Assembly: GCF_024585285.1 (NCBI RefSeq)
Contig: NZ_CP040755.1
Location: 248,001-312,000, forward strand
Source of the DNA: Colwellia sp. M166
GTDB taxonomy: Bacteria > Pseudomonadota > Gammaproteobacteria > Enterobacterales > Alteromonadaceae
Reading direction: 5' to 3'
Length of the DNA: 64,000 nucleotides
Below, in pieces: positions 2,879 to 58,626 of this stretch. A model generated the notes under the pieces. It was not told where the DNA came from. It saw nothing but the letters and a program-made list of their open reading frames with translations, and made no database searches. Positions within the stretch are counted from its first letter, which is position 1, and every line of letters begins with the position of its first letter. A program made the position numbers and the translations under genes.

Positions 2879-3562
2879 ATGAAGATATTACTTGTTGAAG
2901 ACGAACAAAAAATTGCTGACTTTATCTGTGAAGGCATGCGAACAAAAAACTACACGATTACCCATTGTGTTGATGGTAACCAGGGCTATGAGATTGCGAG
3001 TAAAAACACTTTCGATATTATCATTCTCGATATTATGCTTCCGGGTCGCGATGGCTTAGATATTCTTCGCTCTATTCGTCAAATGGGTATCGATACGCCT
3101 GTTATTCTTCTGACTGCTCGTAATGAACTTGGTGATCGTGTTCAGGGCTTAGAAATGGGCGCTGACGATTACTTAGCAAAACCTTTCTATGTAGAAGAGC
3201 TTAATGCTCGTATCCAGGCATTACTTAGACGACATGCCGGCACGCAACAACATGTAATAGAAGTAGGTTCGTTGCAGCTTGATTGCATTAACCGCAGTAT
3301 TAATTGTCAGGGACAATCTATCGAACTCACTAGTCGTGAATTTAGCCTGTTGGAATATTTAATGCGCTCGCCAAATAAAGTCTTAACACGCGGACAATTA
3401 TTGGAGCATGTTTGGGGCTATGATTTTGATCCCTGCACCAATGTTGTCGATGTCTGCATTAAACGTATTCGCCGTAAACTTACCTCACTGGAAAGTGCAG
3501 GAAAAATGGTTGGTGCCATTGAGTCAGTGCGTGGTACAGGTTACCGTTTAAGCCCACGTTAA
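2879..3562 (+). CDS. OmpR/PhoB-family response regulator of the MacAB locus
   Basis: A 227-aa two-domain regulator. The receiver has the acidic pair ED at 7-8, phospho-acceptor Asp51 (IILDIMLPG), Thr79 and Lys101 (LAKPF). The C-terminal winged helix (about 125-225) has the usual LTSREFSLLEYL, and RxxLxxxVWGYDFDP followed by VDVCIKRIRRKL and the RGTGYRL end. It resembles the CusR/QseB-type branch. The sensor kinase follows 9 bases later. The palindrome upstream, repeated before the efflux operon, suggests autoregulation and control of PEBP-macAB. The inducing signal is unknown, and no name is given because the branch cannot be fixed by eye. Confidence 0.9.
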   Translation: MKILLVEDEQKIADFICEGMRTKNYTITHCVDGNQGYEIASKNTFDIIILDIMLPGRDGLDILRSIRQMGIDTPVILLTARNELGDRVQGLEMGADDYLAKPFYVEELNARIQALLRRHAGTQQHVIEVGSLQLDCINRSINCQGQSIELTSREFSLLEYLMRSPNKVLTRGQLLEHVWGYDFDPCTNVVDVCIKRIRRKLTSLESAGKMVGAIESVRGTGYRLSPR

Positions 3563-3571
3563 GGTGATAAA

Positions 3572-5014
3572 ATGAAGTTTCGTACGCGTATTTTTTCTAT
3601 ATCTATCTTAACGGTAAGTGCTGTGCTCGCGGTTATTGTTAGCTTAAGTTGGTCACGTATTATGAAAGTGGAGCTTGAGCAACTTGATGCCCGTCTTTGT
3701 ATGGAAGAAAAGCGCATAATGGACTTTTATTTGCGTAAAGAACGTCGTGGAAATAGTCCGTTGAGCACCTTTCCCATGGCAAGTAACACAGATAATGCTG
3801 ATGACTGGCTTATTAATGATTTAACGCAGAAGTTGCGTATTAACTCTGCTAGTCAACTGATGTTATTCGTTGAATCGAATGAGTCTGGTGTATTGACGCA
3901 ATCTGATGGTGTAGACGTTCAAGCAGTAATAAGTACGTTAAACAGTGAGAGTGAAGAGCAATTTACCTCAGCGGATAGAAATGGGGCAACGGTGCTTTGT
4001 CATCTTGTTTTCTTTGAACATAATAAAAGCCAATGGCGAGCAAGTTTTTATCACACTGGGGAAGCACAAAGCTTTATTGCTGTTGACGTTTCCGCAACTA
4101 CTAACCAACTAAAAAGTACCTTACGAGAGGCACTTATCGTTGTGATCCCTTTTTCTTTATTACTTTGTATTCTTGGTGCATGGTTTATTACGAGTAATAC
4201 CATACGACCGATAAACCGCTTACAAAAATCAATGAATATGGTGACAAAAAAAGACCTTAGCCACCGCTTGCCCGAGCATAAAGCAGATCAAGAGTTTAAA
4301 ATATTAATTGCTGCATACAATACGATGTTAGAGCGACTTGAAGATAGTTTTCAACAAATTTCTCGCTTTACCGCTGATGCGGCTCATGAACTTAAAACGC
4401 CATTGACGGTGCTAAGAGGCAAGCTTGAACAAGCCGTTATCAATGAAAATACCGAGCAATTAGACTTCAATGCCATTCTTGATGAAGTGGGGCATCTGTC
4501 GGCTATTACACGAAAATTGCTACTGTTGTCGCAGGCGGATGCTGGCTCGATGGCGCTACTTCTCGAAGCGATAAATATAACCGACTTATTAGATGAGTTA
4601 ACTGCCGATATGGAACTGTTGTCGGATGAGTTGGTACTACATTGTGCGATTGAACAAGCCTTAATCATCCAAGGTGATGCGGTATTACTAAGACAGCTGC
4701 TAAATAATGTGCTGGTTAACGTGATGCGCTACAGCCTGCATGAGAAAGGAGTCACTATTCAAGCTAAACAAAACGGCGGTCAAATAGACGTGCTTATCAG
4801 TAACTTTTGTCTGCCTATGTCAGATGCCGTGAGAGTTAAATTATTCGAACGTTTTTATCGTGGCGAGCCTGAGCACATGCAAGGACTGTCGGGCAGCGGC
4901 CTTGGGCTAAGTCTAGCGCGAGAAATTGCCCGAGCACATGATGGCGAGCTCATTATTGAAGCGAGCGATAAAGAGCTATTTACTCTGCGACTGTCGTTGC
5001 CGATAACTAAATAA
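3572..5014 (+). CDS. Sensor histidine kinase, partner of the preceding regulator
   Basis: A 480-aa membrane kinase with a transmembrane helix near residues 7-29, a periplasmic sensor region of about 155 residues, a second helix near 185-207, then a HAMP linker (STNTIRPINRL). The dimerisation box has the phospho-acceptor His272 (AADAAHELKTPL). The ATPase domain shows NNVLVNVMRYS (N box), a weakened G1 region (VLISNFC in place of DNGxG), FERFYRG, and GSGLGLSLAREIARAHDG (G2). The degenerate G1 box is unusual, though the rest looks complete. It is translationally close to the response regulator and lies upstream of a MacAB-type efflux operon. Ligand unknown. Confidence 0.88.
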   Translation: MKFRTRIFSISILTVSAVLAVIVSLSWSRIMKVELEQLDARLCMEEKRIMDFYLRKERRGNSPLSTFPMASNTDNADDWLINDLTQKLRINSASQLMLFVESNESGVLTQSDGVDVQAVISTLNSESEEQFTSADRNGATVLCHLVFFEHNKSQWRASFYHTGEAQSFIAVDVSATTNQLKSTLREALIVVIPFSLLLCILGAWFITSNTIRPINRLQKSMNMVTKKDLSHRLPEHKADQEFKILIAAYNTMLERLEDSFQQISRFTADAAHELKTPLTVLRGKLEQAVINENTEQLDFNAILDEVGHLSAITRKLLLLSQADAGSMALLLEAINITDLLDELTADMELLSDELVLHCAIEQALIIQGDAVLLRQLLNNVLVNVMRYSLHEKGVTIQAKQNGGQIDVLISNFCLPMSDAVRVKLFERFYRGEPEHMQGLSGSGLGLSLAREIARAHDGELIIEASDKELFTLRLSLPITK

Positions 5015-5040
5015 TAAGTTAGAAATAATAAGTTAGAAAT
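5013..5040 (+). repeat. Two perfect 14-bp tandem repeats after the kinase gene
   Basis: AATAAGTTAGAAAT occurs twice in direct tandem, followed by a degenerate third copy (GACAAGTTAAATGA) that runs into the palindrome at 5046. The repeat may be part of the operator region or simple replication slippage. Confidence 0.6.
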
Positions 5041-5045
5041 GACAA

Positions 5046-5066
5046 GTTAAATGACAATATTGTCAT
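5046..5066. promoter_or_regulatory. Palindromic operator upstream of the PEBP-macAB operon
   Basis: Contains the perfect 16-base palindrome ATGACAATATTGTCAT. It is nearly identical to the site at 2795-2815 and lies 73 bases before the ATG chosen for the next gene. It is the best candidate binding site for the adjacent OmpR-family regulator. Confidence 0.7.
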
Positions 5067-5139
5067 CCATAGCCAATGGCTAATCGTTAGAATTAGGGTA
5101 ACTCATAAATGGTTGCCTTAATTGCTAAAGAGATTGGTC

Positions 5140-5925
5140 ATGAAAATCAAAAATATTGCTTCCCTTATTCCTATTGTATCGATAGCAAGCTTGATACTAC
5201 TAATGTCAACGGCAGCTAAAGCCGATACAGCCCTTAAACTTTTCAGCCCTGCGTTTTTAGATAATCAAGTACTACCCGTTCAGTTTACCTGTGAAGGTGA
5301 CGGTATTTCGCCGCCATTGAATTGGCAAGGTGTGCCTGATGATGCGAAGTCTTTGGTGCTGATTATGGATCATATGCCCATAGATCATAGACCTAATAAA
5401 AATCCACCTCCTTTACGGCACAAAGAAGCTAAAACCAAAAAACCAGAAGGGTTACGTTGGTATTGGAGTGTTTACAATATTCCAGCGAGTGTCTCTGGTA
5501 TTGCATCGGGTGCTAACGTGGATGTTAGTTCTAACAAAGAAAACGAGCAGCCAGTCGGTACGTTTGGTAGCAATGTAGTCAATGATAATAATGAATATGC
5601 GCCACCTTGTTCAAAAGGTCCAGGCTTAAAAAACTACACATTTCATCTGTATGCACTTTCAAAAATGTTAGTGCTACCTGACTCAAAACATGTATCAGCA
5701 GAAACTTTACGAGCAAGTATGCATGGTGTTGTCTTAGCTTCTGACGCTTTAACCGTTAGTTTTGAGCGCAGTTGCCAATCGCGAGCAAAACCTCGCTTGG
5801 AACAAGGTAGTCAACAAGATAATCAGCAAGAAGAAAAAAGGCATCCACCATCAACATTACCATTGTGTGAGCAAGCTAAAAGTACAACCGATGAAGACGC
5901 TCACGCTAGTGCTTCTCAAAGGTAA
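5140..5925 (+). CDS. Exported PEBP-family (YbhB/YbcL, Raf-kinase-inhibitor-like) protein
   Basis: I choose ATG 5140 (AAGAGA 8-9 bases upstream) over an upstream TTG. It gives a signal peptide (MKIKNIASL...AAKA) and a mature domain of about 200 residues. PEBP motifs are visible: F-S-P-A-F, FTCEGDGISPPLNW, a DH-x-P segment, the YWSVYNIP strand and a late YTFHLYALS strand. It has an insertion after the DH motif (NKNPPPLRHKEAKTKKPEG) and a low-complexity, Gln/Ser/Lys-rich tail of about 50 residues that typical YbhB proteins (about 160 aa) lack. It is first in an operon with macA-macB, so a link to efflux or envelope stress is inferred from position only. Confidence 0.82.
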   Translation: MKIKNIASLIPIVSIASLILLMSTAAKADTALKLFSPAFLDNQVLPVQFTCEGDGISPPLNWQGVPDDAKSLVLIMDHMPIDHRPNKNPPPLRHKEAKTKKPEGLRWYWSVYNIPASVSGIASGANVDVSSNKENEQPVGTFGSNVVNDNNEYAPPCSKGPGLKNYTFHLYALSKMLVLPDSKHVSAETLRASMHGVVLASDALTVSFERSCQSRAKPRLEQGSQQDNQQEEKRHPPSTLPLCEQAKSTTDEDAHASASQR

Positions 5926-5990
5926 GCTGCTTTGAAGCTCTAGTTAAGCACCGTTATAAAATATATCTGTACAGAAATTGAGAGAATGAC

Positions 5991-7232
5991 ATGAAAAAAA
6001 ACATTAAAAAGACCTTGCTATTAGTCCTTTTTATCGCCGTTATCATCGCAGGTGCAGGCTACAAATACAGCTTGTCACAGCAGGTACAAACGGTATTTAT
6101 CACCGATAGTGTTACGCGAGGTAATATTGAGAGTGTGGTACTCACAAACGGTGTGTTATATCCGTCTAAATTGGTTAGTGTCGGTGCTCAAATTTCAGGG
6201 CTGATTGAAAAAATTGGTGTTCAGTTGGGCGATGAAATTAAGCAAGGTGATTTTATTGCTCAAATCGATAATTTGACCCAAAAAAATGCTTTAAAAGAAG
6301 CCGAAGCTTTACTCAAGAGCATTGATGCTCAGTTACGGGCAAAGCAAGCTCAAATAAAAGTGGCGACAGCTGAGTTTACGCGAAGCAAAAAGATGCTGGC
6401 GACTAGCGCGAGTTCACAAGCGGACTATGACACTGCTGAATCTGTACTGGCAGTTTATCGAGCAGAGCTAGATCAATTAAATGCTGAGAAAGAGAAATCT
6501 ATTATCAGTGTCGATAATGCTCAGGTTAATTTAGGTTACACCCTTATTGAGTCGCCTATCGATGGCACAGTCATCTATGTTTCGGTGGAAGAGGGGCAAA
6601 CGGTCAATAACAATCAAGGTACGCCGAGTATTATTGAACTGGCACAACTTGATGTCATGACCATTAAGGCACAGGTTTCAGAGGCCGATATTATAAACGT
6701 TAGTGCAGGGCAAAAAGTTTATTTCACTATTTTGGGTGCTACAGGTAAGAAATATTACGGTGTTTTACGCGCCATTGAGCCAGGCCCAACATTACTTAGC
6801 GGTGACGATAGCTCGTTGAAAATTGGTGACGATGAAGCGATTTATTACAATGCGCTGTTTGATGTTGAAAACCCAGATAAGTTATTGCGCTTTGGCATGA
6901 CAACACAAGTTTCTATTATTCTTGAAAAAGCAGAAAACGCCTTACTGGTACCATCACAAGTGTTAGTTAAAAGATCTGGCCTAAAGGCTTCTTATCAGGT
7001 GCTAGTGAAAAATGGCGACCAAGCTGAATATCGAAATGTCGACGTTGGCATTAATAATAAAATATACGCACAGATATTATCAGGGCTGAACGAAGGTGAT
7101 GAGATAGTGATTAGTCAATCTTCAGGTCTTAACAGTACTGCTTCCTCTAATGCTATAGGCAGCCCAATGGCTGGGCTTGCAGGTGGCAGCATGCGTGGTC
7201 AAGGTGGTCCGGGTTCAGGCCGAGGGTTATAA
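5991..7232 (+). CDS. macA: MacA-type periplasmic adaptor (membrane fusion protein)
   Basis: A 413-aa protein with one N-terminal membrane anchor (residues 7-26), then a split lipoyl/hairpin arrangement: VSVGAQISGLIEKIGVQLGDEIKQGDFIAQID, an alpha-helical hairpin with Gln/Ala-rich helices (about 105-180), and NLGYTLIESPIDGTVIY returning to the lipoyl half. A beta-barrel and membrane-proximal domain follow. The C-terminal 30 residues are Gly/Ser-rich. In the MacAB-TolC family this subunit links the inner-membrane ABC transporter to TolC. macB starts one base after its stop, so the pair is co-translated. GAGAG precedes the start. Confidence 0.92.
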   Translation: MKKNIKKTLLLVLFIAVIIAGAGYKYSLSQQVQTVFITDSVTRGNIESVVLTNGVLYPSKLVSVGAQISGLIEKIGVQLGDEIKQGDFIAQIDNLTQKNALKEAEALLKSIDAQLRAKQAQIKVATAEFTRSKKMLATSASSQADYDTAESVLAVYRAELDQLNAEKEKSIISVDNAQVNLGYTLIESPIDGTVIYVSVEEGQTVNNNQGTPSIIELAQLDVMTIKAQVSEADIINVSAGQKVYFTILGATGKKYYGVLRAIEPGPTLLSGDDSSLKIGDDEAIYYNALFDVENPDKLLRFGMTTQVSIILEKAENALLVPSQVLVKRSGLKASYQVLVKNGDQAEYRNVDVGINNKIYAQILSGLNEGDEIVISQSSGLNSTASSNAIGSPMAGLAGGSMRGQGGPGSGRGL

Positions 7233-9278
7233 ATGATGACTGATACACTGATAAAACTTGTCGATGTGAGCCGTAGTTTTACTGCGGGGGATAATGAACT
7301 TACGGTTTTAAAAAATATTAACTTGCAGATTAATCGCGGAGAAATGATCGCTATTATCGGCGCATCTGGCTCAGGAAAGTCGACACTAATGAACATTCTT
7401 GGCTGTCTGGATAAACCAAACAAAGGCAGTTATTTTATCAATGGACAAGATACCTCCACTATGGGGGAAGATGAACTTGCTGCATTACGACGTGAATACT
7501 TTGGTTTTATTTTTCAACGTTATCATCTCTTAAGTGATTTAAGTGCACTGGGCAATGTCGAAGTGCCAGCATTGTATGCCAATGAAGATAAACACTCTCG
7601 ACAAGCAAAAGCGAAGCAACTGCTTACCCGCCTTGGCTTGGGCGATCGTTTAGATCATAAACCAAACCAACTGAGTGGTGGTCAGCAGCAACGCGTGAGT
7701 GTCGCCAGAGCTTTAGTTAATGGTGGCGACGTTATTCTTGCCGATGAGCCAACTGGAGCATTAGATAGCACCAGTGGCGATGAGATGATGAAGTTGCTTC
7801 AGGAGCTACATGGCGATGGTCATACCATTATTTTGGTAACACACGATCCTAATATCGCAGAGTTTGCTGATCGCGTTATTGAGATAAAAGATGGAGAAAT
7901 TATTAGCGATAAAGCTAATGGCAATAACCCTAGCAACATTGAACAAGAAACTTATAGAGTCGTCAATGAAGGCAAAGTAGTTGAAGGCAAAATAGTTGCA
8001 GGTAAAGCACCTGAAAGTGCTAATAACAAAGCTAAGAAAAAACCTAATAAAAAAGCTAAGAACAAAGTTCGCGAGCGTATTAACTGGTCGCGTTATTTTG
8101 AAGCCTTGAAAATGGCTATTATTGCCATGTCCAATAACCGTTTGCGTACATTTCTTACCATGCTGGGGATCATCATTGGTATTGCTTCAGTGGTGTCAGT
8201 AGTCGCATTAGGCGCGGGATCGCAGCAAACAATTATGGATAACATTGCCTCAATGGGGACCAATACCATAGAGATAAAACCAGGAACAGGTCGTGGAGAC
8301 CGTCGCTCTGGTCGCGTGCATTCACTCACGGCTGAGGATGCCAAGGCGCTTAAAACATTATCATTTGTCGATAGCGCTACGCCAACAGTTAGAGCGAATG
8401 TCGCTATTCGTTATTCAAGTGAAACCGTTACCGGCTCTGTTCAAGGTGTTGGCACTGAGTATTTCCGTGTACGGGGTTATGACTTAGCAAAAGGACAATA
8501 CTTTGGCGAAGACAGCATCGATGCACTAGAACAAGTTGCGGTCATTGACGTGAACACCGAACAAGCACTTTTTTCAGGCGGTAATGCACTCGGTAATGTT
8601 ATTTTTCTAGGTCGACTGCCGGTACGCGTTATTGGTGTGACCAAGCCAATTGAAAGTATGTCAGGCAATAGTGATGAATTGAATGTTTGGTTACCTTATA
8701 CCACCGTATCCGGACGAATATTCAGGCAAGATTATGTCAATGACATCACCGTAAGGGTTGACGCAAATGTATCAAGTGAGATGGCAGAACAAGGAATTAT
8801 TAAGTTATTGACCATGCGGCATGACACGGTGGATTTTTTTACTATCAACACTGACACCATACGAAAAAGTATAGAAAAAACATCTGAAACCATGACGTTA
8901 CTCATTTCTGCTATTGCGTTCATTTCGTTGTTAGTTGGTGGGATTGGCGTCATGAATATCATGTTGGTTTCAGTAACTGAGCGCACCAAGGAAATAGGTA
9001 TACGCATAGCCGTTGGCGCCAGGCAGATGGATATTTTACGTCAATTTTTGATTGAAGCCGTATTGGTCTGCTTCTGTGGTGGCGCACTAGGTATAGGGCT
9101 AGCTTATTTGGTCGGGGTGCTCTTCATCTATACAGGTAGTGAGTTTCAAATGATATATTCTAGTGTATCTATCATTGCCGCTTTTGTTTGCTCGACACTC
9201 ATTGGCATTCTATTTGGTTATCTTCCAGCCCGTAATGCGGCAAAACTGAACCCTATTGAGGCTCTATCAAGAGATTAG
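7233..9278 (+). CDS. macB: MacB-type ABC transporter (ATPase fused to FtsX-like permease)
   Basis: A 681-aa protein. The ATPase (1-225) has Walker A GASGSGKST, Q-loop, signature LSGGQQQRVSVARAL, Walker B VILADEPTGALDS and H-loop THD. A Lys/Ala-rich linker of about 60 residues (around 230-290) is longer than usual for MacB (about 650 aa). The permease half has one helix near 300-325, a large periplasmic domain (about 330-555), and three C-terminal helices with MTLLISAIAFISLLVGGIGVMNIMLVSVTERTKEIG-type motif elements and PARNAAKLNPIEALSRD at the end. It exports macrolides, peptides or toxins in known members; the substrate here is unknown. Confidence 0.94.
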   Translation: MMTDTLIKLVDVSRSFTAGDNELTVLKNINLQINRGEMIAIIGASGSGKSTLMNILGCLDKPNKGSYFINGQDTSTMGEDELAALRREYFGFIFQRYHLLSDLSALGNVEVPALYANEDKHSRQAKAKQLLTRLGLGDRLDHKPNQLSGGQQQRVSVARALVNGGDVILADEPTGALDSTSGDEMMKLLQELHGDGHTIILVTHDPNIAEFADRVIEIKDGEIISDKANGNNPSNIEQETYRVVNEGKVVEGKIVAGKAPESANNKAKKKPNKKAKNKVRERINWSRYFEALKMAIIAMSNNRLRTFLTMLGIIIGIASVVSVVALGAGSQQTIMDNIASMGTNTIEIKPGTGRGDRRSGRVHSLTAEDAKALKTLSFVDSATPTVRANVAIRYSSETVTGSVQGVGTEYFRVRGYDLAKGQYFGEDSIDALEQVAVIDVNTEQALFSGGNALGNVIFLGRLPVRVIGVTKPIESMSGNSDELNVWLPYTTVSGRIFRQDYVNDITVRVDANVSSEMAEQGIIKLLTMRHDTVDFFTINTDTIRKSIEKTSETMTLLISAIAFISLLVGGIGVMNIMLVSVTERTKEIGIRIAVGARQMDILRQFLIEAVLVCFCGGALGIGLAYLVGVLFIYTGSEFQMIYSSVSIIAAFVCSTLIGILFGYLPARNAAKLNPIEALSRD

Positions 9279-9755: not shown

Positions 9756-11714
9756 TTACTTAGCTGTTAACGGTTGCTCTTTGGTTTTCATGCGATAGAA
9801 CACAAAAAACAATACAATAGCCGTTTGTGCAAGCACACCTTGCCACGTTGAACCGACACCAATCCATGGCAGGTCAATGCGAACTGGCAATGCTGAAATG
9901 CCGATCACAGCCGCTTCTTGTAACGCTGATATCGCCTTGCCCATTAAAATAAACGCTAAAGCGAGCAATAAATAGGTTGTCATAGAGAAGAAACGAGCAA
10001 TAGGCAGCTTTATTGAGTATTTTAAAATAGCCCAAGCAACAACCGCTAAAATCACAATGCCTGCGGCAAAACCTGACACTGCGACAGAGTATTGGCTTGG
10101 TATCGCTTGAGTTAATAATGATTGATAAAACAGCACGGTTTCAAATACTTCACGATAGACAGCGATAAACGACAGTAAGGTTAATCCCCATAAAGTGCCC
10201 GCGCGCAATTGCGTGTTAATGTGTTTTTGAATATATGCTTGCCATTGCTGAGCATTGGTTTTGCTGTGCATCCATATACCGACATACAACAACATAACTG
10301 CCGCAAGTAAAGCCGCAACACCTTCCATCACTTCTCGACTCGCACCGCTAATATCAATAATTGATTGTGCTACTGCCCAAGTCGCTATGCCGGCAATTAA
10401 CGCTAACACCCAACCTGCATGGACATATTTAAGCGCATCTTTGCGATTTGTTTTAATTAACACCGTCATTAGTGCAATAACCACTAATAATGCTTCAAGT
10501 CCTTCTCGCAATAAAATAACTAAACTTGCACTAAATAATGCACTACTTGATAAAGCCGACCCGGTTAACAATTGCTCGGCTTCGTTGAGCTGACTAAACA
10601 CGTCTGCTGACAAGGCAATTAAACGCGCTTCTTCACCACCAGTGCTAATAACTTTTCTTAGATTAATCAGGTTTTCTTCAATAGCCTTGCGTAAATCTGC
10701 ATCTCTAGCGTCTAAGCTATTTTCTATTAATTCAAAACCATCAAGATAAGCGCTTACCGCTAAGGTATTCGCTTTTTCATAGTCTTTTTTATGATAAGCA
10801 TCTAAGGCCGCATTTAACTGACTTTTTGTGGTGTTTATTGGGCTTTGTTTTTCACTAAATAATAGCTTAGGCGTTGCTCTGTAAGCATCAATAAAATCAG
10901 CATTAATATTTTTATCACTATTAATTAGCTGAGATGGATTAAAGTTAATCCAGTTTTGCAAAGCAAGATCTTTGGGTTTTTCAGCACTGTCGTCTGCATT
11001 AAAGGCAAGGCTACCGGCATAAAAAGCTAACGACCAACGTTCTTGCTCTTTAAGCTGAGTAAAAGCTGGCATAGCTGTATCGTCTAAGCCATTAGAAATA
11101 GCATCGAACAAGCCGAGCAATGAGCGATTCATTGCTCGCTCTCTATCAGTGAAGTTTGTTGGCTCTGGCGATAGGCCTTTTGCTAAAATGCCATCACCTT
11201 GCCCTGACGGACCATGACAACTAGAACAATTTTCTTGGAATAATTGCTGTGTGCTTTGAGCTGATAACAGCTGCTCAGGAAGCAGTGAATCAGGTAAAAT
11301 AGCGAGGAACTGGCCACGCATATCAGCACTTAATTGACGAATATGACTGACTGTCGACTTGTCTTTAATTGCTTGTTGTAACGCTAATGACTGTTGATAA
11401 ATTGCTGCTTTATTTTCGTGCTCAAATTGCGTAGAAATTCTTTTAGCAATAATGGCTGAGAATTCAAGCATTTCATGATATTCATCTTCATTAACGACCT
11501 GACCTTCTTCTACCGCCGAAGCATAGTCAACGCCAATATACTCTGCCAATTGCGCCAACTGACGTAACTGAGATGTTTGATCACTTTGCGCAGCACTCGC
11601 TTGTGAAAACAAAGCAAGCGACAGTACAATAACAGTGACTAAATTCAGTAACTTTTGCTGAACTTTATTGGAAAAAGTATTCGGATACCCAAAGTGGGCA
11701 GATCTCTTATTCAT
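9756..11714 (-). CDS. Cytochrome c-FTR1 fusion, iron permease
   Basis: A 652-aa protein. It has a signal peptide (to about residue 42), a helical periplasmic region, a class I c-type heme site CSSCHG near residue 163 with a Met/Pro-rich distal segment (DTAMPAFTQL), another helical stretch, then a C-terminal FTR1 domain (about 390-645) with seven predicted helices. Both iron-channel motifs are present: REGLEALLV near 405 and REVFETVLF near 525. FTR1 proteins take up ferrous iron coupled to its oxidation; in fused forms the heme domain may take the electron, which is inference. A Fur-like box lies just upstream. The gene stands alone, with no EfeO/EfeB neighbour. Confidence 0.88.
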   Translation of the reverse strand: MNKRSAHFGYPNTFSNKVQQKLLNLVTVIVLSLALFSQASAAQSDQTSQLRQLAQLAEYIGVDYASAVEEGQVVNEDEYHEMLEFSAIIAKRISTQFEHENKAAIYQQSLALQQAIKDKSTVSHIRQLSADMRGQFLAILPDSLLPEQLLSAQSTQQLFQENCSSCHGPSGQGDGILAKGLSPEPTNFTDRERAMNRSLLGLFDAISNGLDDTAMPAFTQLKEQERWSLAFYAGSLAFNADDSAEKPKDLALQNWINFNPSQLINSDKNINADFIDAYRATPKLLFSEKQSPINTTKSQLNAALDAYHKKDYEKANTLAVSAYLDGFELIENSLDARDADLRKAIEENLINLRKVISTGGEEARLIALSADVFSQLNEAEQLLTGSALSSSALFSASLVILLREGLEALLVVIALMTVLIKTNRKDALKYVHAGWVLALIAGIATWAVAQSIIDISGASREVMEGVAALLAAVMLLYVGIWMHSKTNAQQWQAYIQKHINTQLRAGTLWGLTLLSFIAVYREVFETVLFYQSLLTQAIPSQYSVAVSGFAAGIVILAVVAWAILKYSIKLPIARFFSMTTYLLLALAFILMGKAISALQEAAVIGISALPVRIDLPWIGVGSTWQGVLAQTAIVLFFVFYRMKTKEQPLTAK

Positions 11715-52204: not shown

Positions 52205-52575
52205 TATCGGTTTTGTTACTATTTCAAGCATTATTTCATTATTTTTATCTCTGCAGCTAAATTGAGAGGGCTTAATAAAGTCTTTAATTTATAGACAGCT
52301 AATAGATAACTTTATTTGCTAATTCATAACGAGCTGTTGTTTGAGGCGCGCGTCAGTTGATATTTTTTAGACGTTAAAGAAAGTGTTACTCCACTTAGCT
52401 GACTTAAGTAAATGTTAAGAATTAACGGTTATCTTGATGAGTACTCTAACCGTTGATAATGGTCTATCATCCACAGAGCTATGTAATAGTTAAATATTTG
52501 TTGAACACGAATATTTCGGCATTAGCGCCGGCTAATTAGCGCTATAAATTTGAAATTTCCATGATAGAGATAGCG

Positions 52576-53292
52576 ATGAAAAATTTACCGCAGCATTTAA
52601 CGCTTAAGGCTAAAAGCATTAAAAAGCTCCTAGCCAGTGTCGGTTGCTTAGTGATTTTAACCAGTTTTATTTTTTGCCAATCAGTCAAAGCAATGAATAT
52701 CGAGGTACAGCTGCAACAACTAAGTGAGCACTGGGCACATACTAACTTTGAGTTAAATGGCGAGAGCCAAGAAAATGCTTTTGTTGAGCTTATTGGTCAA
52801 GTAGAAATGCTGACATTTAACTACCCAATGCAAGCTGATGCTTGGGCCTGGAGTGGTATCATCAAATCGACTTTTGCACAGGTAAGTAGTAGTTTATCTG
52901 CTTTATCATATATAAAAGCGGCTAAAAAAGATTTTGAACACGCCATTGAGTTAAATTCCAATGCGCTGACAGGAGCAGCGTATAGCAATTTAGGTATGCT
53001 ATACCATAAAGCCCCAATTTGGCCTATAGCTTTTGGTGACGATGATATTGCCGAAGCTTTGTTGAAACAAGCGCTAGTAAGTTCACCCGATAATAAACTT
53101 AATAATTTTTTCTATGCTCAATATCTTTTTAATGAGCGGCGTTACCATCATGCTAAAAAACATTTATTAATTGCTAAACAAGTGCCGCTGCGAGCAGCTT
53201 GCTTAATTGAAGATAAGTATCGCCAAGTTGATATCGAGTTATTGTTAGTACAGGTCGAGAAAATAATAGCTAAGGAGAGCAGCAAACGCTAG
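52576..53292 (+). CDS. Exported TPR-containing protein
   Basis: ATG 52576 is preferred over 52561 because AGAG stands 7 bases before it. The product has 238 residues with a signal peptide (MKNLPQHL...SVKA) and helical repeats: AWAWSGIIKSTFAQVSSSLS, AKKDFEHAIELNSNALTGAA, YSNLGMLYHKAPIWPIAFGD. This matches a small TPR protein that scaffolds other periplasmic proteins. No operon partner. It precedes the two-component/FTR1 region by 440 bases. Confidence 0.75.
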   Translation: MKNLPQHLTLKAKSIKKLLASVGCLVILTSFIFCQSVKAMNIEVQLQQLSEHWAHTNFELNGESQENAFVELIGQVEMLTFNYPMQADAWAWSGIIKSTFAQVSSSLSALSYIKAAKKDFEHAIELNSNALTGAAYSNLGMLYHKAPIWPIAFGDDDIAEALLKQALVSSPDNKLNNFFYAQYLFNERRYHHAKKHLLIAKQVPLRAACLIEDKYRQVDIELLLVQVEKIIAKESSKR

Positions 53293-53734
53293 ATTTTTAG
53301 CGCTAGACGCTAGATAAGTTATCTAAGTAAATATCAGCATTTTGGTTGTTAGCATGATTGCTAATATTTGTTATTTTTCTTGAACTAACCGCGATTATTT
53401 TGCTTAGTTTGCAGATAACTAATGACATTGCTTTAAAATATTAGCTGGGCGTTTAATAAATAGACCCCTGAAAATTAAGGCTTTATAGAGCTTGATTTTG
53501 CATCTATTATTCTGATTTGAGGTTATAATATCTTTAATGCCGCTAGCTTTACTGATTTGCTTTGTCGTGGGAGTAAATATGACAAAGTAACGTTCATAAA
53601 GCTTAGCTTTGTCAAAGGTTATGTCAGCGTTAGGTGTTTTATCTATTGTTTAGCGATACAGGAAAGCCAGCTAAGACAAGCAAATTAAGTAAATTACGTA
53701 AGTTAAATAGTTACCGAGGTTTTGAAGTAACAAT
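53293..53734. other. Intergenic promoter region of the two-component/FTR1 operon
   Basis: About 440 AT-rich bases with no gene. TTAAGTAAATTACGTAAGTT near 53684-53703 has repeated GTAA elements at 9-base spacing and could be the autoregulatory site of the response regulator. This is weak evidence. Confidence 0.35.
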
Positions 53735-54394
53735 ATGAGAATTTTACTCGTTGAAGATGATTTGCCATTAGCACAAGCACTGCAGCAGTCATTACGTCAT
53801 GAAGGTTTCGTTGTTGACCATGTAGCATCAGGAAATGATGCTGTAACAGCATTAGCTGTTAATGAGCATGATATGGCAATTTTAGATCTAGGTTTGCCTG
53901 ATATGGATGGTTTATTAGTGCTGAAAAAGCTCCGAGCTAAAAAGCAAGCAACACCGGTGATTATTCTTACCGCACGAGATACTATCGAGCAGCGTGTACA
54001 AGGGCTTGATTTTGGCGCAGATGATTACTTAGTTAAACCGTTCGATATTAATGAACTGCTTGCACGGTTGCGCGTTATAGAACGCCGATTAGGCACTGCA
54101 GATAGTGCTATTATCGCTATATCAACAGTCAAACTGGACAGTGCAGCCCATAAGGTTTTTATTGCAGAGCAAATGCTTAATTGTTCGAAAAAAGAGTATA
54201 TGGTGTTAAAAGCGTTAATGGAGAACGCCGGACGTATTCAATCTAGAGAGCAAATAGAATCACGCCTGTATGAATGGGGTGAAGAAGTTATGAGTAATGC
54301 TGTTGAAGTACATATTCATAATTTACGGAAAAAATTACCTGAAAAATTTATCCAAACGGTGCGTGGTGTTGGTTACACCATCAATAAGGCGTAA
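53735..54394 (+). CDS. OmpR-family response regulator (QseB/PmrA-like)
   Basis: A 219-aa protein with receiver Asp51 (MAILDLGLPDMDG), acidic pair EDD at 7-9, Thr and Lys (VKPFD) in place, and a winged-helix end with CSKKEYMVLKALMENAGRI, VEVHIHNLRKKL, and RGVGYTI. Typical of the QseB/PmrA/BasR group. The kinase gene follows after 8 bases, then the cupredoxin/FTR1 genes overlap, so this regulator probably controls the operon it belongs to. Confidence 0.9.
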   Translation: MRILLVEDDLPLAQALQQSLRHEGFVVDHVASGNDAVTALAVNEHDMAILDLGLPDMDGLLVLKKLRAKKQATPVIILTARDTIEQRVQGLDFGADDYLVKPFDINELLARLRVIERRLGTADSAIIAISTVKLDSAAHKVFIAEQMLNCSKKEYMVLKALMENAGRIQSREQIESRLYEWGEEVMSNAVEVHIHNLRKKLPEKFIQTVRGVGYTINKA

Positions 54395-54402
54395 AGCTGA
54401 AT

Positions 54403-55842
54403 ATGTCTATTCGCCGTTACTTGGTGTTGATGTTGCTATCCATTATTACCTTAGTGATCTTTGTTTCTGCGATTGAGGGCTATAAAGCTAGCATGAATAA
54501 AGCAGAGAGCTTATTCGACGACGAACTCGTTTCGTTAGCACAAGTTATTAGCGCTATTGAGCTACCTAAAGGCATTATTAAGCATAAAATAACCAGTAAC
54601 TTTGCTTATCAAGTTATTGTGGATAATCAGGTTGTCAGTCATAGTGAAAATGCGCCGAAGACGCTGATTAATGAGCTCAGTAATGGCTTTAAAAAAGTCA
54701 ACTTTTTAGGTAAACGTTGGCGAACTTATAGCGAAAAAGTTAGTGATAAATCAACAGCAGATTATTGGGTTATTATTGCGCAGCCGTTAAAACAACGCTT
54801 TGACTTAGCTGAAAGTATTATTTTATCTGCCGTTACGCCGATTATATTGGTGATGCCGCTGCTAGCGCTTATTATTTCATTGGCAGTTCGCCAAGGCTTG
54901 AAACCATTAACATTACTAACGCGAGCATTAAAAAACAAAAAGGCAAATGATCTTAGTCAGTTATCGATAAAGTCCAGTAATGAACTTACGCCCGTTATTG
55001 CGACATTAAATGAATTGTTTTTACGACTTTCATTAGCATTTGAACGAGAAAAACAGTTTGCTTCAGATGCTGCACACGAGCTGAGAACGCCGCTCAGTGT
55101 GTTAAAAATCAATCTGCATAATCTACAGCAAAGCTATCTCGATGCGATGCTTATTGCTAATGACAGCAACTCAACAACGTTACAAGCCTTACCCTTTGAG
55201 CAATTAGAGCACAGTGTAGAACGTATGGCGCATGTGGTTGACCAAATTCTAACCTTGAATCGAACTAACCCCGAACAGGTTTTAGCTGAAAGTGAGCGAC
55301 TTAATTTACAAACACTATCACAAGAGTGCATTAGCGAACTCTATCCTTATATTGCTAGTCGTGGCCATGATATTGAACTTAGAAGTGAAGCTAGCATTAT
55401 TTTTGGTAATCGCTTCGCCATAAGTATTTTATTGAAAAATTTGATTGCTAATGCCGCTAAATATACTCCAGACCATGGCAAAATATTAGTTTCTTGTCAG
55501 CAAGGTAGCCGTCATAGCGTAATTCTGCGGATTGAGGACTCAGGACCGGGTATTGCCCCAACAGAATATCAGCGAGTATTTGACCGTTTTTATCGTATTG
55601 GTGGTGATAGTCATAATTCAAAAATTATTGGCTGTGGTTTAGGCTTGTCGATTGTTAAGCATATTGTACAATTGCACCAAGCAAGTATTAGCCTGAGTGT
55701 ATCTGAGGCCTTAGCAGGATTATGTGTTGAAGTGGTATTTAGTCATAAAGAAAATATGCGTGAGGGTAAAATTGAAATAAAAACTCAAAACAATGACTAC
55801 GCTCATAACAGCAAAGTACCTCAGTCAGTAGGGCATGTTTAA
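54403..55842 (+). CDS. Sensor histidine kinase (QseC/PmrB-like)
   Basis: A 479-aa kinase: helix at about 5-25, periplasmic domain of about 115 residues, second helix near 145-168, HAMP-like segment, H box with His225 (FASDAAHELRTPLSVLKIN), ILLKNLIANAAKYTP (N), RIEDSGPGI (G1), VFDRFYRIGG (F), GCGLGLSIVKHI (G2). Its last 35 residues are a charged tail. The stop TAATG overlaps the next start by one base. The small sensor domain could bind metal or a metal-dependent signal, which is inference from context. Confidence 0.88.
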   Translation: MSIRRYLVLMLLSIITLVIFVSAIEGYKASMNKAESLFDDELVSLAQVISAIELPKGIIKHKITSNFAYQVIVDNQVVSHSENAPKTLINELSNGFKKVNFLGKRWRTYSEKVSDKSTADYWVIIAQPLKQRFDLAESIILSAVTPIILVMPLLALIISLAVRQGLKPLTLLTRALKNKKANDLSQLSIKSSNELTPVIATLNELFLRLSLAFEREKQFASDAAHELRTPLSVLKINLHNLQQSYLDAMLIANDSNSTTLQALPFEQLEHSVERMAHVVDQILTLNRTNPEQVLAESERLNLQTLSQECISELYPYIASRGHDIELRSEASIIFGNRFAISILLKNLIANAAKYTPDHGKILVSCQQGSRHSVILRIEDSGPGIAPTEYQRVFDRFYRIGGDSHNSKIIGCGLGLSIVKHIVQLHQASISLSVSEALAGLCVEVVFSHKENMREGKIEIKTQNNDYAHNSKVPQSVGHV

Positions 55843-56306
55843 TGGTTAACGTGCGAGCTAAATTCGTACAGAGCGTGATTGTCGCTTGTATGCTGTTGTC
55901 ATTACCGAGCTTAGCCAAGCGAGCAGAATTTCAACTGATCCTTAAAAATCATCTATTTTACCCGGCAGAAATAGAAATCCCTGCCAATACCAAAGTGAAA
56001 TTGATTATTCATAATCAAGATCAGACACCTGAAGAATTTGACAGTTTTGATCTTAATAGAGAAAAAGTTATTTTTCCGCATAAAAAAGCGGTTATTTTTA
56101 TTGGTCCGTTATTGCCTGGACGCTATGAATTTTTTGGTGAATTTAATCCTAATAGTGCTCAAGGCGCCATTATAGTTAAACCTAACAAGCTAAGCTCTAA
56201 TATTAAAACACGTGCAGCTAGTGATGTGAATATTTTAGCCTTAAATACTGCTCAGAAACGCGTTACACATCGGGTGCTGGTTAAGGAGCTTTATCGTGCT
56301 GATTAA
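55842..56306 (+). CDS. Cupredoxin-like periplasmic protein linked to FTR1
   Basis: A 154-aa protein with a signal peptide (cleavage after SLA) and one cupredoxin-type beta-sandwich: FQLILKNHLFYPAEIEIPAN, KVKLIIHNQDQTPEEFDSFD, then EKVIFPHKKAVIFIGPLLPG, YEFFGEFNPNSAQGAIIV. This pattern (EEFDS, GPLxPGxYxFFGEFxxxxAxG) is the one of cupredoxins encoded beside FTR1 permeases. No Cys is present in the mature part, so a classic type 1 copper site is not expected. Overlaps the FTR1-like gene by 11 bases. Confidence 0.8.
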   Translation: MVNVRAKFVQSVIVACMLLSLPSLAKRAEFQLILKNHLFYPAEIEIPANTKVKLIIHNQDQTPEEFDSFDLNREKVIFPHKKAVIFIGPLLPGRYEFFGEFNPNSAQGAIIVKPNKLSSNIKTRAASDVNILALNTAQKRVTHRVLVKELYRAD

Positions 56307-57108
56307 TACTATTATTTTGTTTCTACGAGATGCTTTACCGGTATTTGTGATCAGCACTATTTTAATTTCCTTGCTGCAACAACAAGGTATAAAGCAACTG
56401 TGGTATTTTTTGGCTGCATGTTCGAGCGTGATACTAAGCTTGTTCTTATTAACCGCCATTGATGATATTTCGCATACCTTTGATAGTACTGGTCGAGAAT
56501 GGCTTTATGCTTGTTTTTATATTGTTTGTTATTTTATCACATTATTATTACTGACTCAGTTACCCGTAGTGCAAGGGCACTTAAGTATGCGAAGACATTT
56601 CGTTATTCTCCTTTGTGCTAGCAGCTTAATGGTGATAGTAATGACACTTAATAGTGCAAATTTTTTAATTTATATTACCGGTTTTTGGTATCAAAATAAC
56701 GCCTCTAATGTGCTCGTTGCTGGTGTTATTCTGGGTGTTGGCATTTGCGCGAGTATTGCCGTGTTATTGTACTTTTTGATGACCTTTATTGAGCGCTATT
56801 GTCGAATTATCTGTCAAATATTGCTGATATTTTTTAGTGCAGGCTTATTAATGAAAGCGACTAATTTACTGATACAAATTGATGTGTTATCGAGTGAACG
56901 TTTCTTATGGGACTCGAATCATTTAATTATCGAAAATTCAGAATTAGGGCAATTGTTAACCGTTTTCGTCGGCTATGATGCCACGCCAACAATGCTGCAA
57001 TTTTCGCTTTATTTATCAGCCATTTTAATAGCATTTAGCTTGATGCTTTCTCGCGCTATTTTTAGTAAACCAAGTCCCACCATAACTCTATCTAAGGAGG
57101 CTGCGTAA
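56296..57108 (+). CDS. Divergent FTR1-family membrane protein lacking REXXE motifs
   Basis: GTG start at 56296 with AAGGAG 7 bases upstream; 270 residues, about seven helices. The C-terminus (ENSELGQLLTVFVGYDATPT, then a final helix) and overall plan match the EfeU/FTR1 family. The channel motif in helix 1 is RDALP (R11-D12-x-x-P15) instead of REGLE. The counterpart in helix 4 reads NSANF instead of REGxE. Loss of both iron-oxidation motifs means that it probably does not move iron as FTR1 does; another metal, or a non-transport role, is possible. Overlaps both neighbours. Confidence 0.75.
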   Translation: MLINTIILFLRDALPVFVISTILISLLQQQGIKQLWYFLAACSSVILSLFLLTAIDDISHTFDSTGREWLYACFYIVCYFITLLLLTQLPVVQGHLSMRRHFVILLCASSLMVIVMTLNSANFLIYITGFWYQNNASNVLVAGVILGVGICASIAVLLYFLMTFIERYCRIICQILLIFFSAGLLMKATNLLIQIDVLSSERFLWDSNHLIIENSELGQLLTVFVGYDATPTMLQFSLYLSAILIAFSLMLSRAIFSKPSPTITLSKEAA

Positions 57109-57827
57109 TGCGCTGTCAAATGTTAATAAGTCTGCTTCGGATTATTTCCTTCAGCCTTGTCATCGTTATCAGTCATGTCGTTGTCGCTGATGGCGTTGTC
57201 GTTGATAAGGTTTATCATCCTTATGTGTTGCCTAACGAACGTGAATTTGAATGGCGCATGTTGTCGCATCAAAATGATGCTGGTAATAGCTTAGCGCAGC
57301 GGCTAGCTTACGGACAGTCGTTAACTGAGTATATTATGGTTGAAGTTTATGTCGTTGGTGAACGAGACCGCAGTGGTGATTTTGGCTTGTCAGCTTATGA
57401 AGTTGAAACACGCTGGATGCTAACCGAGCAAGGAGAGTATTGGGCAGATTGGGGTATGTTACTTGAAGTTGAAAAAGAGCATAAACGTGATATTTGGGAA
57501 GTCACTACCGGGATATTATTTGAAAAAGAATTTGGTCGTAATAGCTTAGCGCTAAATGCCTTCTTAATTTATGAAATGGGTAGTGATATTCAAAGTGAAT
57601 TTGAACGCGAGTTTCGCTTGCAATATCGCTATCGTTGGTTACCGCAAGTTCAGCCGGCTATTGAAGTTTATATTGGTGAGGATTACACCGGCATCGGACC
57701 TGCCTTTATGGGCATACAAAGATTTGAGGGACAAAAACAATTGAAATGGGAGGCGGGCTTTATTACCGGGCTAAACGGTGACAGTAAAGATCATATTTTG
57801 CGTGTTGCCATTGAATATGAGTTTTAA
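57108..57827 (+). CDS. Putative outer-membrane or periplasmic beta-rich protein
   Basis: ATG overlaps the previous TAA by two bases (TAATG) after AAGGAGG. The 239-aa product has a signal peptide (to VVA-DGV), then repeated amphipathic strands ending in Tyr/Trp/Phe: EFEWRMLSHQND, YIMVEVYVVGERDR, VETRWMLTEQG, YWADWGMLLEVEKE, and the last strand ends IEYEF with a terminal Phe, as in outer-membrane beta-barrels. This suggests an 8-10 strand barrel. Not recognised as a named family. It is the fifth gene of the operon. Confidence 0.65.
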   Translation: MRCQMLISLLRIISFSLVIVISHVVVADGVVVDKVYHPYVLPNEREFEWRMLSHQNDAGNSLAQRLAYGQSLTEYIMVEVYVVGERDRSGDFGLSAYEVETRWMLTEQGEYWADWGMLLEVEKEHKRDIWEVTTGILFEKEFGRNSLALNAFLIYEMGSDIQSEFEREFRLQYRYRWLPQVQPAIEVYIGEDYTGIGPAFMGIQRFEGQKQLKWEAGFITGLNGDSKDHILRVAIEYEF

Positions 57828-57831
57828 GCAT

Positions 57832-58626
57832 ATGATGTTTAAAAAGCAAATAGTTCGACAACTATTTTGGGGTTTGTTTGCGCTGTCAGTACTGACTTTT
57901 TCGTTAGGTATTAGTTGGCAAGTGAGTAAAGTGAATAACTTCTTTTATAGCTTCTGGTACCAAACATTAGATATTCATCAAATTATTGATAAAAGTGTGC
58001 CAAGAAATACCCAAGGAAAAGGTGATTTTCCGATTAATGATATTGAGTTACACGAAAAAAAATTTGCTGACATTGTTGATGCTATTCACCAACACGGTGT
58101 CGGCTTAGCGGAAATTACTTACGTAAATAAACAGTTGAACTCACGAAAACTCCTGACTATCAGTGAAGTTCAGCATCTGCAAGATGTTGCTAATTTGCTT
58201 GATAACATCAGCCATTATTGGTGGGGAAATTTATTTTTTCTCCTCAGTTTGGCTATATTTTATTGTTGGCAAGTTAAGAACCATGCTGGCTCGCCAGTTC
58301 AGCAGTTAAGAATAGCGTCCTTCAGAGAGATGCCAACATCTAAGCAGAAAGTTATCACTGTGCTAGCATTGATGCTATCCGTGGTGGTGTTACTTGCAAG
58401 CTTAGGTTTTACGCAAATTTTTTATTATTTGCATACAGTTGTATTTCCACTCGATCATCAATGGTTCTTCTATTATAAAGAATCGTTAATGGCAACGCTG
58501 ATGAAAGCGCCAGATATTTTTGCCGCTATCGCACTACAGCTGTTGCTCGTTGCGTTGGTCATTGCCGTCAGTATTGACGCCGTTATTAGCCGTTATCAGC
58601 GCAAAAACAAAGCTAAGTTGGCTTAA
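57832..58626 (+). CDS. DUF1461-like integral membrane protein
   Basis: I choose ATG 57832, 4 bases after the previous stop; upstream in-frame ATGs lie inside that gene. The product (264 residues) has a helix near 10-30, a periplasmic region with LHEKKFADIVDAIHQHG, then helices about 125-145, 170-195 and 225-250. The pattern FYSFWYQ, and LHTVVFPLDHQWFFYYKESL near the end, follows DUF1461/TIGR01906 membrane proteins. Function unknown. It ends the operon. Confidence 0.65.
   Translation: MMFKKQIVRQLFWGLFALSVLTFSLGISWQVSKVNNFFYSFWYQTLDIHQIIDKSVPRNTQGKGDFPINDIELHEKKFADIVDAIHQHGVGLAEITYVNKQLNSRKLLTISEVQHLQDVANLLDNISHYWWGNLFFLLSLAIFYCWQVKNHAGSPVQQLRIASFREMPTSKQKVITVLALMLSVVVLLASLGFTQIFYYLHTVVFPLDHQWFFYYKESLMATLMKAPDIFAAIALQLLLVALVIAVSIDAVISRYQRKNKAKLA

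Follow-up and report, generated by a model that had tools for sequence, protein, structure and literature searches.

The window analysed here is a stretch of 64,000 nucleotides (nt) of contig NZ_CP040755.1 from Colwellia sp. M166, and all coordinates are positions in this stretch. According to the list of open reading frames (ORFs) of the window and their translations, six ORFs lie at positions 53735-58626 on the forward (+) strand. They encode a two-component system, a cupredoxin, a protein derived from the FTR1/EfeU iron permeases, an outer-membrane barrel and a Lit-family protein. An initial annotation had described six genes in one direction with overlapping ends, and the layout is as described: TAATG is found at two junctions (kinase/cupredoxin and FTR1-like/barrel), and the cupredoxin and FTR1-like frames share 11 bases. 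The six genes are:

53735..54394, + strand: OmpR-type response regulator (Pfam PF00072 and PF00486 over cut-off)
54403..55842, + strand: membrane-bound sensor histidine kinase whose periplasmic domain is short (HisKA and HATPase pass their cut-offs, 2CSK_N narrowly misses)
55842..56306, + strand: periplasmic EfeO-type cupredoxin-like protein (Cupredoxin_1, PF13473, E 4e-29; no Cys in the mature part)
56296..57108, + strand: FTR1/EfeU-derived seven-helix permease-like protein without REXXE (EfeU model 41 bits; structure model with pLDDT 92.9)
57189..57827, + strand: 12-strand outer-membrane barrel with Phe as last residue (structure model; the ORF starts at 57108)
57817..58626 (or from the GTG at 57778), + strand: Lit-family membrane protein, formerly DUF1461 (PF07314), a lineage-specific addition

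With the FTR1-like protein as query, homologs were found in 89 of 196 genomes of the same family, representing 32 of 52 genera. From these, 89 loci were fetched from 88 genomes, since genome G073 (two FTR1-like matches cut by contig ends) was not fetched and genome G056 gives two loci; contig-cut matches of G057 were also left out. The order response regulator, kinase, cupredoxin, FTR1-like protein, barrel is kept on one strand in all 89 loci, and the operon is therefore real and not a chance arrangement. The response regulator and kinase are present throughout, which bears out the initial claim of an envelope-spanning unit with its own sensor kinase, and the FTR1-like gene adjoins the barrel gene in every locus. 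The cupredoxin and FTR1-like frames overlap in 88 of the 89 loci (by exactly 11 nt in 69), the FTR1-like and barrel frames in 87 (by 4 nt in 55). Each of the five genes has a near-full-length ORF in nearly all loci; the response regulator is short in L062. When the barrel was used as the seed, 92 of the 196 genomes gave a match, one of them a 53-residue remnant. Two full-length barrels that the FTR1-like seed missed lie in loci of this order too; in one of these loci the FTR1-like slot is taken by an unrecognised 248-residue ORF. The nearest named locus, in Cognaticolwellia aestuarii, has an identical gene order and an FTR1-like protein with 82% identity. One congener holds the five-gene unit twice, its second, complete copy being diverged (L088, from G056).

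The FTR1-like protein shares common descent with FTR1, as the initial identification as a divergent member implied: hhalign gave a probability of 100 (E 4e-47) to 17 relatives that match the EfeU model. By itself it scores 41.3 bits against the EfeU model NF041756, far under the cut-off of 255, and Pfam FTR1 (PF03239) was not reported for it; only 5 of 75 members of the clade to which it belongs (see below) match FTR1. Its structure model found no match in the Protein Data Bank (PDB) at E < 0.001 with Foldseek, and a profile search of PDB sequences found none up to E 10; nothing therefore follows from solved structures. The positions that matter most, as placed by alignment, are:

56326..56340, + strand: R11-P15, site of REXXE motif 1 (RDALP) in helix 1, by alignment to intact relatives
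56647..56661, + strand: L118-N122, site of REXXE motif 2 (LNSAN) in helix 4, by alignment to intact relatives
56941..56943, + strand: E216, near the C-terminal end, an acidic residue new to the REXXE-less clade (present in 67 of 75 of its rows, against Leu, Val or Ile in 22 of 26 intact ones)

The loss of both motifs, first noted as RDALP in helix 1 and NSANF in helix 4, holds under alignment. REXXE-equivalent Glu residues were sought in the window protein; D12 and P15 were found in place of the two Glu of motif 1, and N119 and N122 in place of those of motif 2. Neither Glu pair is kept in any of the 89 family rows. Position 12 is Asp in 61 of these rows and Glu in 12, and position 15 is Pro in 86. 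The protein thus lacks the REXXE signature of the FTR1/EfeU iron permeases, and a plain EfeU-like ferrous iron importer was not accepted as an explanation because both motifs are gone.

In a tree built from the barrel only, which took in 23 of the 89 family rows, the REXXE-less rows form one clade (support 100/99). Next to it stand intact members that share this two-component system (9 rows, 98/77). REXXE loss was a single event, in the family of the window. After the loss the permease diverged faster than the barrel: the median FTR1/barrel identity ratio per pair is 0.50 in the clade vs 0.90 in 11 intact unfused loci. Such divergence could suggest a decaying remnant of an iron importer, and some damage is seen: one FTR1-like gene (G127) and one barrel gene (G105) have a stop within their matched stretch, genome G140 holds a broken second barrel copy, and one genome retains a barrel-only remnant. 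Against decay stand the near-full-length ORFs of nearly all loci, the selection data and the newly fixed residues. In one species pair, the window and C. aestuarii, dN/dS is 0.14 for the FTR1-like gene and 0.06 for the barrel gene, so the FTR1-like protein is under purifying selection. P15 is fixed in 73 of 75 clade rows, where all 26 intact rows have Glu, and N4 occurs in 68 of 75. E68 is found in 75 of 75 clade rows and 23 of 26 intact rows; Q194, G218 and G226 are found in all rows. Decay is accordingly given hardly any weight, and the reading of the FTR1-like gene as a pseudogene was rejected, being largely refuted by the dN/dS value and the newly fixed residues. Because purifying selection goes together with newly fixed residues (P15, E216, N4), the pattern looks like a re-specialisation of the permease, not decay.

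The cupredoxin passes the PF13473 cut-off, and its nearest solved relative is 8vuk, an EfeO-type cupredoxin (E 4e-14), to which a stretch of the form EFES/EFDS..L..EKV could be aligned. The motif PEEFDSFDLNREKV is conserved in the family. The only Cys sits in the signal peptide. The initial annotation was thus correct that the mature part holds no Cys; the lack of Cys is not odd here, since the nearest solved relative is of the EfeO type.

The barrel, at first only putative, gave a confident model with 12 strands (pLDDT 93.9). The model together with the signal peptide, the even number of amphipathic strands and the C-terminal aromatic residue points to an outer-membrane beta-barrel. The last residue is Phe in 87 of 89 family barrels. 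The signal peptide is placed as follows:

57108..57188, + strand: barrel signal peptide, residues 1-27 (...VVVA before DG; model helix 2-21, low confidence at 25-27; A27 in 79 of 89 rows)

About 21 acidic vs 10 basic residues lie on the polar face of the strands, as assigned by alternation and with no control set. The barrel reaches no Pfam or NCBIfam cut-off, and no PHROGs match up to E 0.1 was obtained for the cupredoxin, FTR1-like, barrel or Lit-like proteins.

Relatives outside the family were collected with a barrel profile, which matched 36 of 369 genomes of the class, and with a broader profile, which matched 54 of 398 genomes of the phylum, 28 of them in family f207 of another class. 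Of the latter 54, 10 belong to the window's family, 25 were examined and 19, mostly weaker or fragmentary matches, were left out. Altogether 57 outside-family genomes were examined (34 of 34 from the class search and 25 of 44 from the phylum search, two common to both). An intact barrel ORF is present in 55 of them; two class genomes gave none. The fetched stretch holds FTR1 in 43 of these 55 genomes and both FTR1 and cupredoxin in 41. All 17 unfused FTR1 relatives match the EfeU model at E < 0.001. The four REXXE Glu are kept in all 26 aligned rows, 17 unfused ones and 9 fused ones from the class search, and the unit therefore descends from an ordinary FTR1 permease system. Of the 17 unfused rows, one has the REXXE Arg of helix 1 replaced and two have that of helix 4 replaced.

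FTR1 and barrel form a single ORF in 21 of the 55 genomes. The fusions are:

one-ORF FTR1-barrel fusions: L171, L174, L177, L178, L180-L182, L185, L186, L226, L227, L230
one-ORF FTR1-barrel fusions, continued: L232-L235, L237, L239, L240, L242, L258

The first 20 fused ORFs are 486-526 residues long, the shortest being cut by a contig end, and each has both REXXE motifs by pattern. The linker typically consists of a basic stretch followed by a hydrophobic stretch. Ala stands at position -1, directly before the barrel, in 21 of 21 fusions; position -3 is Ala in 16 of 20 and otherwise Ser, Thr, Gly or Leu. By these features the linker is a signal-peptide-like segment inside the protein. The C-terminus of FTR1 lies on the cytoplasmic side of the membrane, which would place the internal segment correctly for signal peptidase, and the fusion protein would be cut there. 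Two apparent fusions, L164 and L165, were dropped because their long ORFs run across the FTR1 region out of frame; both loci have a separate FTR1 ORF. In L193 (a Hydrogenophaga plasmid) and L179 the barrel gene, which follows FTR1, is split by an in-frame stop.

Among the barrels without FTR1, a cupredoxin-barrel pair stands divergent to FeoB in L257, and in L190 such a pair lies upstream of Nramp on the same strand, 0.76 kb apart. A TonB receptor adjoins the barrel in L189, and Na+/H+ exchangers are near it in L248 and L260. The pairing of barrel and FTR1 outside the family is strong but not universal.

The two-component pair of the window was compared with curated models of known systems. 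The response regulator is below the cut-off for PmrA, QseB and CopR-type models (best PmrA, 230.8 of 330), the kinase for QseC, PmrB and CopS-type models (QseC, 200.5 of 475), and the pair was accordingly not assigned to QseBC, PmrAB or CopRS. The strict linkage of regulator and kinase to the unit in the family could suggest that the REXXE-less protein no longer transports and that, together with barrel and cupredoxin, it serves as an envelope sensor informing the adjoining kinase. The complete loss of both motifs and the faster divergence of the FTR1-like protein would also fit such a role. The same two-component system, however, adjoins intact, REXXE-bearing versions in 10 loci (L157-L166), so kinase acquisition and REXXE loss did not coincide; and E68, Q194, G218 and G226 remain invariant in the protein. 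A purely sensory role is regarded as unlikely. Tandem TTA/TTAA-like repeats at 53690-53734, upstream of the response regulator, are weakly kept in relatives and represent a possible operator. In the regions upstream of seven loci, of which L006 and L040 are one and the same sequence, TTAA-type repeats are only weakly conserved.

A further set of genes accompanies the unit in many relatives. Genes for a thermostable hemolysin (T_hemolysin), an AMP-binding protein, an iron redox enzyme, an SDR protein and TPR or hypothetical proteins lie near the unit in Alteromonas macleodii (plasmid pBGP9) and Pseudoalteromonas carrageenovora (pKCTC22325); the redox enzyme of L158 belongs to the Haem_oxygenas_2 family. 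In the flanks of the 89 family loci T_hemolysin was found 29 times, AMP-binding 38 times, the iron enzyme 35 times, SDR 34 times and TPR 40 times (TPR by tblastn). These counts are lower bounds because the flanks are short, mostly 4-7 kb and less at contig ends; for several loci from the phylum search the flank was 1.5 kb only. The window shows one member of the cluster, its last gene:

52561..53292, + strand: TPR protein with a signal-like N-terminus (39% to a Pseudoalteromonas carrageenovora gene)

Two congeners (L041 and L042) still hold parts of the T_hemolysin, AMP-binding, iron enzyme, SDR and TPR cluster. It is conceivable that the unit serves the pathway of these enzymes, by supplying iron or by exporting the product through the barrel. 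T_hemolysin co-occurs with the unit, in 49 of 89 family genomes with the FTR1-like protein vs 12 of 107 without it (p 3e-11), and the enzyme genes also stand beside intact two-component loci. The genome of the window nevertheless keeps the operon while T_hemolysin is absent, in a search that detected this gene in 61 of 196 relatives; a search for the iron enzyme, without positive control, also came back empty. The four enzyme genes were also not seen near cupredoxin-FTR1-barrel loci outside the two-component clade, apart from a weak SDR-like match in L182. Service to this pathway is thus rather improbable.

The sixth gene behaves differently from the other five. The initial annotation took it for a DUF1461-like membrane protein, and it passes PF07314, now named Lit, with 38 bits vs a cut-off of 24. 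Two His residues can be placed:

58174..58176, + strand: H120 of the Lit-like protein, aligned to a His of 7b0o
58432..58434, + strand: H206 of the Lit-like protein, aligned to the second His of 7b0o

Both, which we take to be the catalytic His of Lit, are invariant in 19 rows, so that the protein belongs to the Lit transacylase family by profile and by its conserved His pair. As these His align to 7b0o and do not vary, the protein may be active. The gene follows the barrel directly in 8 of 89 family loci only. Across the family, Pfam Lit was found in 27 of 196 genomes, 11 of 89 with the FTR1-like protein vs 16 of 107 without it (Fisher p 0.68), and of 20 Lit loci fetched (L194-L213) seven have an adjoining barrel and 13 have none. 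In L245 (G169, at about 7080-7981) a barrel remnant stands directly before an intact Lit-like gene and the rest of the unit is gone; here the unit decayed while Lit stayed. The Lit-like gene is an add-on outside the conserved unit. Of the original proposal that all six genes form one unit, the five-gene order stands and the sixth gene falls away.

Lit2 in Listeria is said to take over lipoprotein N-acylation under copper, and the operon could by analogy be a copper defence in which the Lit-like protein has this task. The family assignment and the invariant His pair fit this idea; the rarity of the gene beside the unit, its lack of genome-wide association and the low scores of regulator and kinase against the copper-system models do not. 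Copper defence through Lit was rejected as the main explanation because of the 8 of 89 loci and the missing association, and it is very improbable.

Elsewhere in the window, positions 2879-9278 encode another two-component pair, behind which lie genes for a PEBP-like protein, an HlyD-type adaptor and a MacB-type ABC exporter.

Taken together, the ancestral unit was most likely a three-part ferrous iron uptake line consisting of barrel, cupredoxin and FTR1, on account of the company it keeps (FTR1, and once each FeoB and Nramp), the overlapping frames, the fusion and the acid-rich face of the barrel. In such a line metal, most likely ferrous iron, would cross the outer membrane by way of the barrel, be received in the periplasm by the EfeO-type cupredoxin and be carried across the inner membrane by the FTR1-derived protein; we infer the substrate, the direction and the feeding of the permease by the barrel. 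In the family of the window the module would be under its own two-component system, with a permease rebuilt without REXXE. We give about even chances to this reading of the operon as a trans-envelope metal-acquisition module that derives from an FTR1 iron permease system and has its permease rebuilt under a two-component system. Since REXXE is lost and P15 and E216 are newly conserved, the rebuilt permease probably carries a different form of iron or a different divalent metal, by a mechanism that does not use REXXE. A changed substrate or mechanism, which may equally hold or fail, is likelier than a purely sensory role or service to the enzyme cluster, the last being the least likely of the three. 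The initial description of an envelope-spanning transport or sensing system distinct from a normal ferrous iron importer is retained as far as the envelope-spanning layout and the missing REXXE are concerned, and not in its extension to six genes.

Several observations weigh against the metal-acquisition reading. The REXXE residues are thought essential for iron transport by FTR1, and they are gone. Within the clade, the FTR1-like protein is less conserved (median identity 0.28) than the barrel (0.55) or the cupredoxin (0.46). The genome has two other FTR1 genes: one, in the window at 9756-11714 on the reverse (-) strand, encodes an FTR1 protein of 652 residues with a cytochrome c domain, and a further FTR1 protein lies in a 664-residue frame at about 3.50 Mb of the same genome. 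In 12 of the 55 barrel genomes from outside the family the fetched stretch holds no FTR1, 8 of these 12 also lacking cupredoxin, so the barrel is not always a partner of FTR1. Apart from the FeoB and Nramp loci, the scanned neighbours of the FTR1-less loci (all but L188 and L236) include no recognisable transporter of iron or manganese. Finally, the unit in the family is linked to an enzyme cluster of unknown product.

The passage of ferrous iron through the outer membrane is usually attributed to general porins. A barrel that is regularly paired with cupredoxin and FTR1, and that in 21 genomes is in one frame with the permease, is a candidate for a dedicated outer-membrane channel. If true, one chain that carries both an inner-membrane permease and an outer-membrane barrel would be a remarkable example of protein sorting. 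Intact and REXXE-less members occur naturally with the same partners and thereby offer a system for asking what REXXE does. To our knowledge, no cupredoxin-FTR1-barrel system has been described. The fuller reading falls somewhat short of an even chance; it holds that cupredoxin, FTR1 and barrel make up a so far undescribed iron uptake system that spans the envelope and has an outer-membrane channel of its own, that in many lineages permease and barrel are made as a polyprotein, which signal peptidase cuts at the internal signal peptide and whose parts go to two membranes, and that in marine Alteromonadales the permease was rebuilt without REXXE for a new substrate or mechanism, under a dedicated two-component system. 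The system would be a new form of FTR1-type uptake, and its fused inner/outer-membrane version would be unusual if processed as suggested above.

Among known systems, the Lit transacylase 7b0o resembles the sixth protein by the PF07314 match and the alignment of both His; it differs in that the host of the window is Gram-negative and only the second half of the protein matches, weakly (profile search E 0.015). The copper outer-membrane protein PcoB (7pge) has 6% identity to the barrel and a lower structural match than many unrelated barrels. The 12-strand outer-membrane channels COG4313 (4rl8), FapF, KdgM and NanC are among the closest known systems. FtrABCD is a ferrous iron system of Bordetella and Brucella in which the cupredoxin FtrB works with the FTR1 permease FtrC. 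The unit of the window shares the combination of cupredoxin and FTR1-type permease and has a barrel instead of FtrA and FtrD; neither a P19-like FtrA nor a ferredoxin-like FtrD was recognised in eight scanned window proteins. In the same eight proteins neither the peptidase-like domain of EfeO nor the EfeB peroxidase of the EfeUOB system was recognised. With EfeUOB and Ftr1p (NF041756; PF03239) the unit shares the permease family, by profile, and an EfeO-type cupredoxin partner. In relatives that share its gene order the four REXXE Glu of these permeases are all retained; the family of the window differs by the absence of REXXE and by the addition of an outer-membrane barrel and a two-component system.

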